Of a stretch of DNA of 23,788 bases, positions 8,949-20,669 are shown piece by piece (position 1 is the first letter of the stretch; each line of letters starts with the position of its first letter). The DNA is from a virus: the IMG/VR virus record IMGVR_UViG_3300043431_000292, positions 1 through 23,788 of that record; one strand, given 5' to 3'. Position numbers and translations under genes: made by a program. The notes under the pieces were generated by a model that worked only from the letters and a program-made list of their open reading frames with translations, was not told the DNA's origin and did no database searches.

Positions 8949-9128
8949 GTGAAAAAGATAGCGAGTGATTTATACCCGAAGCAACGCACTGGCAAAGAGT
9001 GCAAGAAAACTGAATGCGAGCGTTACGAAGCGTACAAGGCGTGGCAGTGTGGCACAGGCAGCTTGAATTTTTGTATGAGCTGCAAGAATGCGCATGTTTC
9101 GCAGTTTAAGAAAAAGCAAAACACATAA
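8949..9128 (+). CDS. Cassette-borne small zinc-ribbon-like protein, 59 aa
   Basis: GTG 8949 is chosen because a perfect GGAGGTG site lies just upstream; a longer form from 8928 would start inside the recombination motif. Cysteines at about residues 18, 23, 34, 42 and 45 (C-x4-C, later C-x2-C) suggest metal binding. The protein is very basic (ends KKKQNT). Its TAA stop is embedded in the CATAAC box of the attC-like site, a compact cassette arrangement. Function unknown. Confidence 0.65.
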   Translation: MKKIASDLYPKQRTGKECKKTECERYEAYKAWQCGTGSLNFCMSCKNAHVSQFKKKQNT

Positions 9129-9206
9129 CGCTGAGTTAAAGCGCGTCCGTAAATTTTAGTGTAGTAATAAATTCTAATTCCGTCGCTTTGAGCGACTTGT
9201 TAAGTG
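9124..9206 (+). other. attC-like recombination site A
   Basis: Outer boxes CATAAC (9124-9129) and GTTAAGT (9199-9205). The inner arms GTTAAAGCG (about 9134-9142) and CGCTTTGAGC (about 9184-9193) are inverted repeats apart from one extra base and a mismatch. The centre is about 40 bp of AT-rich sequence. This is the R''-L''-L'-R' order of integron attC sites, here 83 bp long. It follows the stop of one ORF and precedes the next. Confidence 0.7.
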
Positions 9207-9217
9207 AGGTAATCAGC

Positions 9218-9361
9218 GTGGGGACTGGATTTAAAATTGACGTGGCACTTAGTATTGTTTGTGTTCTGTTCTTGCAGCTTTGGCCTACCCAAGCCGTTCA
9301 AATTGCGGTGAACGAGCAAATGAAAGGCGGCTATGTGGCAGGGTGGGCGAAATACACTTAA
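9218..9361 (+). CDS. Small signal-anchor-like cassette protein, 47 aa
   Basis: GTG start with GAGGT 7 bases upstream, located 12 bases after the attC-like site. Hydrophobic segment at about residues 8-27 (DVALSIVCVLFLQLWPTQAV), then a short tail ending GGYVAGWAKYT. Probably membrane-anchored. The stop TAA lies in CACTTAAC, which resembles the first box of the attC sites, but no second half follows. No family recognised. Confidence 0.5.
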   Translation: MGTGFKIDVALSIVCVLFLQLWPTQAVQIAVNEQMKGGYVAGWAKYT

Positions 9362-9371
9362 CAGGTAATCA

Positions 9372-9385
9372 ACGGCCTAGGCCGT
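9372..9385. repeat. Perfect 14-bp palindrome ACGGCCTAGGCCGT
   Basis: The palindrome lies in the 72-bp gap before the nin-like block. It could be a protein-binding site. It is not followed by a T-run. A weak promoter-like pair (TTGAGC 9396, 17 bp, TAATAG 9419) lies between it and the next gene. Confidence 0.6.
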
Positions 9386-9433
9386 ATATTTCCAATTGAG
9401 CTAACACAAAGTAAATTCTAATAGGTTTTAACT

Positions 9434-18182: not shown

Positions 18183-18403
18183 ATCGACAAGAAATAGCAA
18201 AGCACCTGCGATTTGTAGCAGATCAGATGCACAGCGTTGGAGTGCTGATGGATTATTACGGAGGTCTTGACTCTGAGATGACAACAAAGGCCAGAGAGAT
18301 AATCGGAGCAAGCGCAATAGCTCGATCATGGGCTGAAGCAATAGAAAACGAAACAAGCGAGGGCAGCGAAAGTGAAAACATCACCGTACAAAAATCTATT
18401 TAG
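18179..18403 (+). CDS. Hypothetical helical protein, 74 aa (TTG start)
   Basis: The only start close to the previous stop is TTG 18179, overlapping it by 4 bases, with AAGGGCAG upstream. The sequence is helical throughout (MNRQEIAKHLRFVADQMHSV, then ARSWAEAIENETSEGSESEN). No family recognised. TTG is a guess for the start; an internal ATG (18226) would shorten it. Confidence 0.5.
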   Translation: MNRQEIAKHLRFVADQMHSVGVLMDYYGGLDSEMTTKAREIIGASAIARSWAEAIENETSEGSESENITVQKSI

Positions 18404-18494
18404 ATGCGATTGGAAAGGCATCACAGCAATCGGTAAAACCAGAAAAGAAGCGCGAGACACAATGATTAAGATGATGAGGCAGTTTAAAAAGTGA
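18372..18494 (+). CDS. Small basic protein, 40 aa
   Basis: A GTG-start frame bridging the two neighbouring genes (KTSPYKNLFRCDWKGITAIG, then KTRKEARDTMIKMMRQFKK). It is strongly basic and overlaps the previous gene by 32 bases and the next by 4 (GTGA). The reading frame fills an otherwise uncoded gap and has compact-domain character (K-A-x-D-x-M helix). Existence likely, function unknown. Confidence 0.5.
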   Translation: MKTSPYKNLFRCDWKGITAIGKTRKEARDTMIKMMRQFKK

Positions 18495-18673
18495 TTGATT
18501 TTGAAGTGTGGGTAAACGAGCAAACAAAAATAGTTTGCGATTATTTCGGGATAGGGGAGTTTGAGAGTGAAAAAGTTTCTAAGCGTGAGGGGCAAGGGAG
18601 CAGAGCCGACAAGCCGCCTACAGTTCTACACGCCAGAGTTTCCGTGCAAGATGCGAGTGAATCTATGGGGTAA
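18491..18673 (+). CDS. Small hypothetical protein, 60 aa; 3' half overlaps next gene
   Basis: GTG start overlapping the preceding stop (GTGA). The first ~26 residues (VIDFEVWVNEQTKIVCDYFG) look coding. The rest lies over the start of the next gene and looks like filler (KVSKREGQGSRADKPP). Either a real overlap or a gene whose end has been overwritten by a frameshift into the 18567 frame. Confidence 0.4.
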   Translation: MIDFEVWVNEQTKIVCDYFGIGEFESEKVSKREGQGSRADKPPTVLHARVSVQDASESMG

Positions 18674-18902
18674 GGCGTCAAAGCATCTAAAGCGCGATGT
18701 AGACGTTGATTGTGAGCATCCTTTATCGCTAAAAGAGTTTAGCGAAGAATTAGAGGTAATATCCGAAGGGTTCTTCAATGAGTTTAATGACCTTATCGAA
18801 AAGCAAACTCTAGTTTTAGAGCTAAGCGGTAAACATGCAGATGCTTACGAGCTAAAGAACATGATACCAAGCTACGGATATGATGTATTTGAAATCAAAT
18901 AA
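18567..18902 (+). CDS. Hypothetical phage protein, 111 aa
   Basis: GTG 18567 is chosen because GGGGAG lies about 9 bases upstream; TTG 18561 is too close. The N-terminal part is basic and the C-terminal half helical and acidic (EFSEELEVISEGFFNEFNDL, then KHADAYELKNMIPSYGYDVF). No family recognised. It ends just before a promoter, closing the replication/modification operon. Confidence 0.6.
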   Translation: MKKFLSVRGKGAEPTSRLQFYTPEFPCKMRVNLWGKASKHLKRDVDVDCEHPLSLKEFSEELEVISEGFFNEFNDLIEKQTLVLELSGKHADAYELKNMIPSYGYDVFEIK

Positions 18903-18911
18903 ATAAAAACA

Positions 18912-18940
18912 CTTTACAATCATAAAGGATGTTGCTATAG
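18912..18940 (+). promoter_or_regulatory. Rightward promoter TTTACA-17-TATAGT
   Basis: TTTACA at 18912-18917, 17 bp, TATAGT at 18935-18940, preceded by AAATAAATAAAAACAC. It drives the accessory block that includes cassette array 2. Confidence 0.7.
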
Positions 18941-18983
18941 TTACATCACTGAGGCAATAAAGCTAAAGACAAACAAATAGGCA

Positions 18984-19223
18984 ATGAAGATGGAAAACTT
19001 AAACGCAGCAAACTTCAAATTAGAGTCTCGCGCAAACGTTGCAACTGGCGAGGGTTACAAAGGTGAGTTATTTGACCGCTTTTACAGTGAAGAAGATGAT
19101 TGTTTTGCGGAAGTATTTACTAATTTAGATGGCTCGCAAACTCTAGTTGTTGGCGATCACATTCCTTTCGATCAAGAAACAGAGATTGACGAGCAAGATA
19201 AATTTATTGCGAGCATGTATTAG
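18984..19223 (+). CDS. Acidic hypothetical protein, 79 aa
   Basis: First gene after the 18912 promoter. It is acidic and beta-rich in the middle (CFAEVFTNLDGSQTLVVGDH), with an acidic tail (DQETEIDEQDKFI). ATG 18984 and ATG 18990 are both possible starts. No family recognised. Confidence 0.6.
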   Translation: MKMENLNAANFKLESRANVATGEGYKGELFDRFYSEEDDCFAEVFTNLDGSQTLVVGDHIPFDQETEIDEQDKFIASMY

Positions 19224-19234
19224 TAACGACAATG

Positions 19235-19248
19235 GCGCGAAAGCGCCT
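19235..19248 (+). other. GGCGC-GAAA-GCGCC hairpin in 5' leader
   Basis: A 5-bp GC stem with a GNRA tetraloop (GAAA), 12 bases before a small membrane-protein gene. No T-run, so probably an mRNA stability or translation element rather than a terminator. Confidence 0.5.
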
Positions 19249-19260
19249 ATCGAGGCAAGA

Positions 19261-19353
19261 ATGAAAGATAAAATACTGGGCGCTATATGCTGGGCCGCAC
19301 TATTAGCAATAACCGCATGTTTGTATGTAGGCTGTTTTGGTGTTCCGCCATGA
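19261..19353 (+). CDS. Tiny membrane protein, 30 aa
   Basis: ATG 19261 has GAGG upstream. The product is essentially one hydrophobic segment after a short basic start (MKDKILGAICWAALLAITAC, then LYVGCFGVPP). The cysteine after LAITA could make a lipobox-like site, but the fit is weak. Overlaps the next ATG as ATGA. Confidence 0.5.
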   Translation: MKDKILGAICWAALLAITACLYVGCFGVPP

Positions 19354-19457
19354 CGGCATCAAGATATTGCAAAGCTCACGGAATTAAGAGTCTAACGTTT
19401 CTAGCTAAACAGCTTGGCGTAGATAGGCGAACGATGCACCAACTTTTTGTTAAGTGA
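19350..19457 (+). CDS. Mini HTH protein, 35 aa, running into the array 2 junction
   Basis: The frame begins at the ATGA overlap. It encodes ASRYCKAHGIKSLTFLAKQL followed by GVDRRTMHQLFVK, a recognisable helix-turn-helix core (LT.LAKQLGVDRRTMHQLF). Its stop lies a few bases beyond the predicted cassette crossover (G19449/TT), so the array insertion supplies its last codons. It may be a truncated regulator. Confidence 0.5.
   Translation: MTASRYCKAHGIKSLTFLAKQLGVDRRTMHQLFVK
19440..19456 (+). promoter_or_regulatory. Shared left-end motif of array 2, attI-like or half attC recombination site
   Basis: CAACTTTTTGTTAAGTG, with the G/TT core at 19449-19451. It matches the motif at 8921-8937 in 16 of 17 positions, and the similarity continues (AAGGTGAG, CGAA). 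No full attC could be built with upstream sequence. Confidence 0.5.
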
Positions 19458-19468
19458 AGGTGAGCGAA

Positions 19469-19639
19469 ATGATTAGGAAGCTATTACATGCACACAGAGT
19501 AAAAGTTCATTTGAACTATTGTAAAGGCTCGGCATTTGGCTCAGCTTGTGTGGGAAACCTTGAACGACATAGAGTTTTTAATTCGCTAACAAAAAAGCGG
19601 TACAAGCAATACGCCAAAGTAAAATTTTGGTTTATGTAG
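19469..19639 (+). CDS. Cassette protein, basic, 56 aa
   Basis: ATG 19469 is preferred because GAAGGTGAG lies 5 bases upstream. The product is basic and aromatic (MIRKLLHAHRVKVHLNYCKG, ending KKRYKQYAKVKFWFM), with GSACVGNLERHRVFNSL in the middle. Its stop lies 5 bases before attC-like site B. No family recognised; short basic ORFs of this kind are common in integron cassettes. Confidence 0.55.
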   Translation: MIRKLLHAHRVKVHLNYCKGSAFGSACVGNLERHRVFNSLTKKRYKQYAKVKFWFM

Positions 19640-19644
19640 TAACA

Positions 19645-19729
19645 CATAACGCCAATGTTCAGCGGTGCCTTTTAACAAACAGCGAAAGGCGAACTCTTGC
19701 AGCATCCGTGCTGAAACGCCTTGTTATGA
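19645..19729 (+). other. attC-like recombination site B
   Basis: The boxes CATAAC (19645-19650) and GTTATG (19723-19728) are exact inverse copies. Inner arms: TTCAGC-GG-TGC on the left and GCATCCGTGCTGAA on the right, pairing with two unpaired bases on one strand (the extrahelical bases of attC sites). A further stem GCCTTT/AAAGGC sits in the central part. Length 85 bp. It lies between the stop of one cassette ORF and the start of the next. Confidence 0.8.
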
Positions 19730-19750
19730 CCAACTACCGGAGTAAACAAA

Positions 19751-19954
19751 TTGAATAATAGATTTCCTCACGATAGGCAAATACAGGTGTTTCGGCCAGA
19801 TATGACAACATACAAAATACTAGAAAGTTCGCACTTGATTAGTGTGCAAAATATGTCTGATTCAGAGGTTAGAGTTTCACAGGCATTTCGGGCCAAAGCC
19901 AGTGCTGATGATTTTTCAGTTAAAAACCCATTCTACAATGGGCGCAGGTCATAA
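19751..19954 (+). CDS. Cassette protein, 67 aa (TTG start)
   Basis: TTG 19751 with CGGAG upstream gives MNNRFPHDRQIQVFRPDMTT; ATG 19801 would give a 50-aa form. The middle ILESSHLISVQNMSDSEVRV looks like a compact alpha/beta piece. The stop TAA lies inside the CATAAC box of site C, typical of compact cassettes. No family recognised. Confidence 0.55.
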   Translation: MNNRFPHDRQIQVFRPDMTTYKILESSHLISVQNMSDSEVRVSQAFRAKASADDFSVKNPFYNGRRS

Positions 19955-20035
19955 CGCAGAGCTAAAGCGCGGCTGACTGAGCCAGCTTTAAAACTGCAAA
20001 TTAAATTCTGTCGCCTTTCAGCGACTTGTTAGCTG
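19950..20035 (+). other. attC-like recombination site C
   Basis: Boxes CATAAC (19950-19955) and GTTAGCT (20028-20034). Inner arms GCTAAAGCGCG and GTCGCCTTTCAGC pair with two unpaired extra G (as read on the complement). A small stem GGCT/AGCC sits at the tip. Length 86 bp. The 3' end (GCGACTTGTTA) is identical to site A's (GCGACTTGTTA), so the two sites are related. Confidence 0.8.
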
Positions 20036-20057
20036 AAGCATAACGGAGTGAAAAACT

Positions 20058-20324
20058 ATGAGAATTTGGAAATACAAACTCGAAATAAATGATTTTCAGG
20101 AAATAGAAACACCTTCTGGCGGTGAGATATTAACAGCGCAAATGCAAGGTAATGAGCTGCAGCTTTGGGTTTTGGTGAATGAAAACTCAATACATAAAAC
20201 GACTAGAAAGATTGCCATTTACGGTACTGGAAACCCAATGCCAGAAAGTTGTGGTAAATATATTTCAACGTTCCAGCTGCACAATGGCGCGTTAGTATTT
20301 CATGTGTTCGAACTGGCCAGATAA
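20058..20324 (+). CDS. Cassette protein of a small family common in phages and integrons, 88 aa
   Basis: GGAG precedes ATG 20058. The protein reads MRIWKYKLEINDFQEIETPS, then a beta stretch (ILTAQMQGNELQLWVLVNEN), then IYGTGNPMPES and YISTFQLHNGALVFHVFEL. I recognise this plan (KIWKY.L, QLW.LV, IYGTG.P, GTFQ..G.LVFHVFE) as a small DUF7352-like family found in phage genomes and in integron cassettes. The role is unknown. The stop TAA lies inside the first box of site D. Confidence 0.65.
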   Translation: MRIWKYKLEINDFQEIETPSGGEILTAQMQGNELQLWVLVNENSIHKTTRKIAIYGTGNPMPESCGKYISTFQLHNGALVFHVFELAR

Positions 20325-20404
20325 CGCCAATATAACTGGTGCGCTTTTCACAAGTGATTAGTGCGCCAAACTTAAACCGCATCCAGTTAATATTCTTGTT
20401 ATGT
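20320..20404 (+). other. attC-like recombination site D
   Basis: The best example: GATAAC (20320-20325) and GTTATG (20398-20403) outside; a 3-base unpaired spacer on each side; and inner arms AATATAACTGGTGCG (left) and CGCATCCAGTTAATATT (right). The right arm, complemented, matches the left with exactly two extra bases, the expected extrahelical pair. Length 85 bp. The folded bottom strand has all parts of an integron attC. Confidence 0.85.
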
Positions 20405-20429
20405 GACGGATGCTTGCGAGGATTTAGAG

Positions 20430-20618
20430 ATGGAATTATCAGTTGAATATTTTGAAATTGCACTGGACACCATTGTGAAAAACAACAGGAATACAGCCTC
20501 AATTACACAGAAGGAGCTGAAGTGGATAATTGACGAGCTAAATAAAAATGACAAAGTTACGGTGGGCATAACTACGCACTACCACCCTGACGCAAAACCG
20601 ATTGACGGAATTATTTAA
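20430..20618 (+). CDS. Cassette protein, 62 aa
   Basis: ATG 20430 is chosen for the GAGGA site 8 bases upstream; a longer frame from 20403 would begin in the recombination site. The product is acidic and helical (MELSVEYFEIALDTIVKNNR, then TQKELKWIIDELNKNDKVTV) with a short tail. Next to its stop lies ACACATAAC, a first attC box, but the rest of the site is missing. No family recognised. Confidence 0.55.
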   Translation: MELSVEYFEIALDTIVKNNRNTASITQKELKWIIDELNKNDKVTVGITTHYHPDAKPIDGII

Positions 20619-20628
20619 ACACATAACA
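20619..20628 (+). other. Truncated attC remnant (first box only)
   Basis: ACACATAAC directly after the stop of the last cassette ORF, as at sites A and B, but with no paired second half before the next gene. Probably the right end of the array was lost by deletion. The motif alone is short and could occur by chance. Confidence 0.35.
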
Positions 20629-20669
20629 ATGGAATATACGTATCACGCAAAGTCGAGGCATATAAATCA

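Follow-up and report, generated by a model that had tools for sequence, protein, structure and literature searches.

Inverted attC cassettes and attI-like sites in a tailed phage genome that lacks an integron integrase

Clusters of attC sites without an integrase (CALINs) are already known from phages: they have been described in the virulent phages TJE1, PH101/H101, and P12002L, and in published assays IntI1 recombined attC of PH101 (Qi et al. 2023, PMC9892861). The arrays described here resemble those CALINs in being integrase-less attC clusters in lytic phages, with small genes of no known function. Unlike for the present phages, the available part of that paper describes no inversion, phage attI, matching host integron lineage, cassette swaps, or attI chimera. 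Also similar are the sedentary chromosomal integrons of Gammaproteobacteria (our family G027: L228, L229, L231-L234, and L240), which have the same attI core, TAACAGTTTATTnAA...TATATTTCC, and whose attC are recognized by the same covariance model (R1, see below). Unlike the phages, these integrons have intI, and their genes point away from attI, the same way as the attC. At about 130 nt, the host attC near the closest IntI exceed the phage attC in length, and they also differ from them in sequence. The "reverse integron" of Treponema (PMC3607928, PMC4909258) is likewise an integron of unusual orientation, but the turned element there is intI (relative to the array), whereas in the present phages it is the genes (relative to attC and attI). 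Finally, insertion at attG or other secondary sites likewise puts cassettes outside an intI-bearing locus, but such a site is a lone G/TT (a slash marks the crossover point), whereas the phage arrays end in a conserved attI-like site.

The window (the whole stretch of 23,788 nucleotides that was analysed) is a 23.8-kb virus record of a tailed phage, and a marine one according to our best explanation. It encodes the small and large subunits of terminase, helicases, a methyltransferase, a single-strand annealing protein, and an exonuclease. The terminase marks the phage context:

22145 to 23728, plus strand: terminase large subunit (PHROG terminase match)

Identity between the window's terminase and its counterparts in Pseudoalteromonas, Vibrio, and Shewanella phages reaches about 63% at most. 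A near-identity search of an annotated phage collection found no near relative of the window, so we used terminase and attC patterns to find relatives instead. An Rfam search gave 0 matches. All of the contigs that we compared are metagenomic.

We searched for attC with a covariance model, R1, built from 27 bacterial attC: 26 that adjoin intI, all from genomes of a single GTDB class, and the attC of aadA1. The structure of R1 is backed by covariation, and its polarity was calibrated on aadA1 of plasmid R100, where gene and attC point the same way, with the attC behind the gene. (R1 replaced a simple box-and-arm scan, which returned many chance matches.) R1 identified four attC in the window, and the best other match scored 9.0 bits, which leaves a gap of 14–24 bits over the background. 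All four attC are on the minus strand and the genes are on the plus strand; at these four sites, no plus-strand match reached an E value of 10.

19644 to 19729, minus strand: attC site 1 (R1 29.4 bits), predicted crossover between 19649 and 19650
19949 to 20034, minus strand: attC site 2 (R1 22.9 bits), predicted crossover between 19954 and 19955
20319 to 20404, minus strand: attC site 3 (R1 32.4 bits), predicted crossover between 20324 and 20325
9123 to 9205, minus strand: attC of a second (mini) array (R1 33.1 bits), predicted crossover at 9128/9129 (TAA/C)

These sites are real integron attC, and they match the model of bacterial attC. An earlier note, made from the letters of this DNA, had claimed three sites with the full attC plan in a phage genome without an integrase, and this is what we find: in sites 1 to 3 (86 nt each), the outer boxes are inverse (TAAC...GTTA), the spacers are unpaired, the inner arms contain extra bases, and the tip is variable. 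The stop codons that it placed inside the first box of two sites are there as well, at sites 2 and 3. The note also spoke of four sites. The covariance-model search that it proposed matched all of its attC and turned up a fourth complete one at 9123–9205, outside the range that it had given, while what lies near 20628 is the edge of an attI-like sequence and not an attC. With three attC within 761 nt and no IntI, the main array is a CALIN.

Sites that are 82–91% identical to site 3 are present in L007, L099, L102, L111, and other records (these labels are our own). When 431 kb of other phages were scanned with R1 at E ≤ 0.2, nothing matched but two L076 sites and, in L106, the array of the window itself; L106 is a near-identical relative of the window. 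Minimum free energy folding of the four sites as single-stranded DNA was weak (z from -0.9 to -3.2), and only site 3 formed a long, attC-like stem. We rejected transposons or REP-like repeats as a reading of these sites because the units are gene-sized and end at the R box.

A crossover in attC takes place at the G/TT of the R' box. Because the attC of the window are on the minus strand, the crossover lies at their left end in the gene direction, at TAA/C, and because attC polarity opposes the gene direction, a unit comprises an attC and the gene downstream of it. Each unit would begin with the base that follows a TAA and end with the TAA of the box after it. On this point the earlier note was mistaken: it had the sites facing in the gene direction, and because that polarity was wrong, so were its unit boundaries (an ORF with the following attC, cut at G/TT on the right). 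The ORF that it took for the first cassette gene is flank, and the gene after site 3 is a cassette gene. The genes and predicted units are as follows:

19454 to 19639, plus strand: gene before the array; no attC lies ahead of it, and it is flank and not a cassette gene in the present reading
19650 to 19954: predicted unit of attC site 1 and gene B
19751 to 19954, plus strand: cassette gene B (67 aa, from the ORF list), with the following crossover point at the end of its stop TAA
19955 to 20324: predicted unit of attC site 2 and gene C
20058 to 20324, plus strand: cassette gene C (88 aa), DUF7352 (Pfam PF24043, E = 3e-26)
20325 to 20626: predicted unit of attC site 3 and gene D
20432 to 20618, plus strand: cassette gene D (62 aa), in the last unit and adjoining attI; an ORF with a ribosome-binding leader, GCTTGCGAGGATTTAGAG, that is common to other cassettes
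9123 to 9205 and 9218 to 9361: predicted unit of the second array (attC and ORF)
9218 to 9361, plus strand: cassette gene of the second array (ORF of 47 aa, GTG start), with the predicted crossover at the end of its stop TAA

Arrays of this kind are present in about 30 IMG/VR phage records. Our viral set consisted of 24 loci found with an attC-derived pattern, with about 110 sites in them by R1, and was later extended with extra loci to about 30 records. For each interval between neighboring sites, we compared the direction of the longest ORF to that of the attC. In phages, 5 intervals had the same direction and 72 the opposite, versus 97 same and 15 opposite in bacteria (p about 1e-30). Thus, in 72 of 77 phage intervals, the genes do not have the direction expected of a complete integron, in which cassette genes run along the attC and are read from Pc away from attI. 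R1 does not force this inversion, because TJE1 comes out with normal polarity: re-scanning with R1 recovered the attC clusters of both TJE1 and H101/PH101, and only the latter (Pseudoalteromonas phage KR534323, 76529–77987) shares with the window attC that are inverted relative to the annotated genes.

The stop codon of the ORF ends right at the crossover in 47 of 75 phage units versus 38 of 102 bacterial units. A stop codon in the box is frequent in bacterial arrays too and is therefore not special evidence, and we dropped it as a proof of design after this bacterial control. In one diverged pair (L146 and L094), the downstream attC are more alike (0.74) than the upstream attC (0.56), contrary to the proposed unit; a similarity of 0.74 is attained by 9% of random attC pairs.

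Among the cassette genes of the window, only gene C belongs confidently to a family (DUF7352). Similarly, most of the 69 cassette proteins from related phages are small and have no recognized family. The recognized cargo includes Lar anti-restriction proteins, TET-associated glycosyltransferases (TAGT), DNA methyltransferases, PAPS reductase/DndC-like proteins, and HTH regulators. A leader, GCTTGCGAGGATTTA, lies directly before the start codon of different cassette genes in L007, L101, L119, L132, L140, L145, and the window (20405–20431), and is in part tied to one attC subtype. In L104 (3319–3417), a cassette of a phage array appears to contain a tRNA-like gene (alanine, cgc, by ARAGORN).

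As in a complete integron, the arrays of the window are adjoined by attI-like sites, which the earlier note had overlooked, as it had the second array (9123–9394):

9359 to 9394, minus strand: attI-like site of the second array, a clear copy, TAACAGGTAATCAACGGCCTAGGCCGTATATTTCC, aligned with phage and host attI (the first bases, TAACA, are invariant)
20621 to 20660, minus strand: degenerate attI-like site (copy from 20624 onward), ACATAA/CAATGGAATATACG, identified by alignment with host attI, predicted crossover between 20626 and 20627

In about 18 phage records, the array ends in such a sequence, a conserved one whose start coincides with the boundary; it reads TAACAGTTTATTCAACGGCCTAGGCCGTATATTT or, in a variant form, TAACAGCGGAATATACGGCC. 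Read in the attC direction, it can be seen as having the L-R inverted-box plan of attI (GAATAAAC-T-G/TTA). The attI-like sequence is also present upstream of intI at 7 of 8 close IntI loci: that of a gammaproteobacterial MAG (L115/L240) and, among the seven closest IntI relatives that we inspected, those of six; in the seventh, L230, it was not seen.

From these features, we consider it likely that a tailed marine phage carries two integron platforms without an integrase, each with attC cassettes that end in an attI-like site, and that the units are exchanged via an IntI. The phages themselves do not seem to supply it: the window and 25 related phage records had 0 matches to the integron integrase (TIGR02249) at E ≤ 10, so that the window is not a complete integron in this respect. 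Because the phage attI matches chromosomal attI, the host's IntI is suggested as the driver. Among 144 genomes of the likely host family, which is gammaproteobacterial, 111 have an IntI. We infer that this integrase may be what moves the cassettes during infection.

The earlier note had also supposed that the phages exchange genes with host integrons, and the distribution of the attC does not bear this out. The attC subtypes of the 24 viral loci had 0 matches in the 144 host-family genomes, and in 257 Gb of genomes we found them only in one 3-kb phage-like MAG contig (L088), along with one distinct Cycloclasticus attC; this contrast between phage and host subtypes is partly built in because the search pattern was derived from the phage sites. 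(Other pattern matches, in Massilia, Yersinia, and two Chitinophaga genomes, were judged by eye to be chance.) The phages appear to keep a cassette pool of their own. L088 (SYDJ01000086.1) has six attC-like sites and was binned with a gammaproteobacterial MAG in which intI with a matching attI is also present, and L088 and its MAG are possibly a phage and its host. The attI similarity, together with the binning of this phage contig, suggests the tie between the phages and an IntI-bearing MAG. In the Cycloclasticus MAG (L085, 6777–6853), the locus has two bacterial attC, of which one is near the phage pattern, and the genome has its own intI.

These same searches bear on the source of the integrase. 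It could come from another phage or a plasmid, or be a phage recombinase unlike IntI, instead of being encoded in the host chromosome, and the phage records may be fragments; also, neither the 257 Gb of genomes nor the host-family genomes yielded a bacterial array with these attC subtypes. We consider this unlikely, as none of the 25 phage records has an IntI, no relatives of the L115 IntI were found in viral contigs, and the phage attI matches chromosomal intI loci.

If the sites are active with a host integrase, then genes should enter, leave, or be swapped as whole units. The comparison of related phages that the earlier note had proposed reveals such units, and neither of the outcomes that the note had named as refuting it came about. 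G008, G018, and L103 share a left flank that ends in GTTGATAAGAGATAR/CGC (GATAR/CGC), and G008 and G018 share a right flank that begins with TAA/CAGCGGAATAAACGG (TAA/CAG); L103 has lost attI and kept the sequence behind it. Between the predicted points, the cassettes are wholly different, and the left border has attC of different types. Another example is a 1.16-kb unit that G002 and G010 share at 88% identity, which comprises an attC, a small ORF, and a TET-associated glycosyltransferase (Pfam E = 7.5e-49). The similarity starts at the left end of the attC and stops at TAA/C; beyond this point, one phage has attI and the other has a further attC. In these comparisons, as in integron cassettes, a gene and an attC are exchanged together, in a single unit whose ends lie at the crossover base, and the unit is an attC with its downstream gene. 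As aligned, the genomes show exchange among phages.

Two phage genomes would also be joined at attI on occasion. L106 (IMGVR_UViG_3300044806_000330) matches the window at 98% from 18369 to 20628, including the array. Past 20628, L106 has attI and the terminase genes of a different phage, and only about 5 nt (TAACA) are common at the join. Judging from this alignment, L106 is a chimera of two phages joined at the attI point. Over the stretch that was compared by BLAST, the array of the window recurs in both L093 and L106 with 100% identity.

These junctions are also where homologous recombination has to be weighed: the attC-like repeats could now be mere recombination sites (or intergenic terminators) at which phage annealing recombinases exchange cassettes without any integrase. 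The phage does encode a single-strand annealing protein and an exonuclease, and attC subtypes recur across phages, which would provide short homology. But the attC that come next at the three-phage junction are of different types and have only about 6 nt in common, the overlap in L106 is of similar brevity, and the breakpoints are at the canonical crossover base instead of being scattered over a homologous attC stem. We therefore view this explanation as improbable.

An even poorer fit is the view that these are ordinary host cassettes, with units of an ORF and the following attC, that reached the phage by chance and are traded with host integrons. It draws on the tandem arrangement, in which attC-like sites follow short ORFs in the same direction, and on the attC clusters that were already described in phages (in the available part of PMC9892861). 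It is very unlikely given the inverted polarity of nearly all intervals, the shared cassette and the swap junctions at TAA/C, and the near absence of the attC subtypes from bacterial genomes. That the sites are chance hairpins or assembly artefacts, as metagenome contigs and modest folding z-scores might suggest, is hardly credible given the R1 gap, the recurrence of arrays in about 30 records from many samples (with the window's own array repeated in L093 and L106), and junction overlaps that are too short for an assembly join.

We return to phage platforms served by an integron integrase. In such platforms, phage transcription would read the cassette genes toward attI, which is the reverse of a bacterial integron. 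A broader version has about even chances of being correct: a network of lytic marine phages would combine a phage attI and phage-specific inverted attC cassettes with the host's IntI, the inversion would separate the phage and host pools, and attI would also serve to swap genome arms. If so, the inversion would keep the pools apart because each cassette would be antisense in the other's platform.

Phage attC clusters without an integrase were already known (Qi et al. 2023). What is new is the systematic inversion, attI in phages that have no integrase, the match to a host integron lineage, and the junctions of swaps and of a chimera. In the literature that we searched, which mostly excluded subscription papers, preprints, and supplements, we found no account of gene-inverted phage cassettes, of phage attI without an integrase, or of attI chimeras. 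Taken as a whole, the comparisons suggest that phages may borrow a host integrase to swap whole gene units. If this is true, then phages have a cassette pool and a landing site of their own and trade small accessory genes by means of a bacterial recombinase. This would explain, in a testable way, the mosaicism of phage genes and the exchange of terminase arms, and it would give attC polarity a role beyond gene expression.
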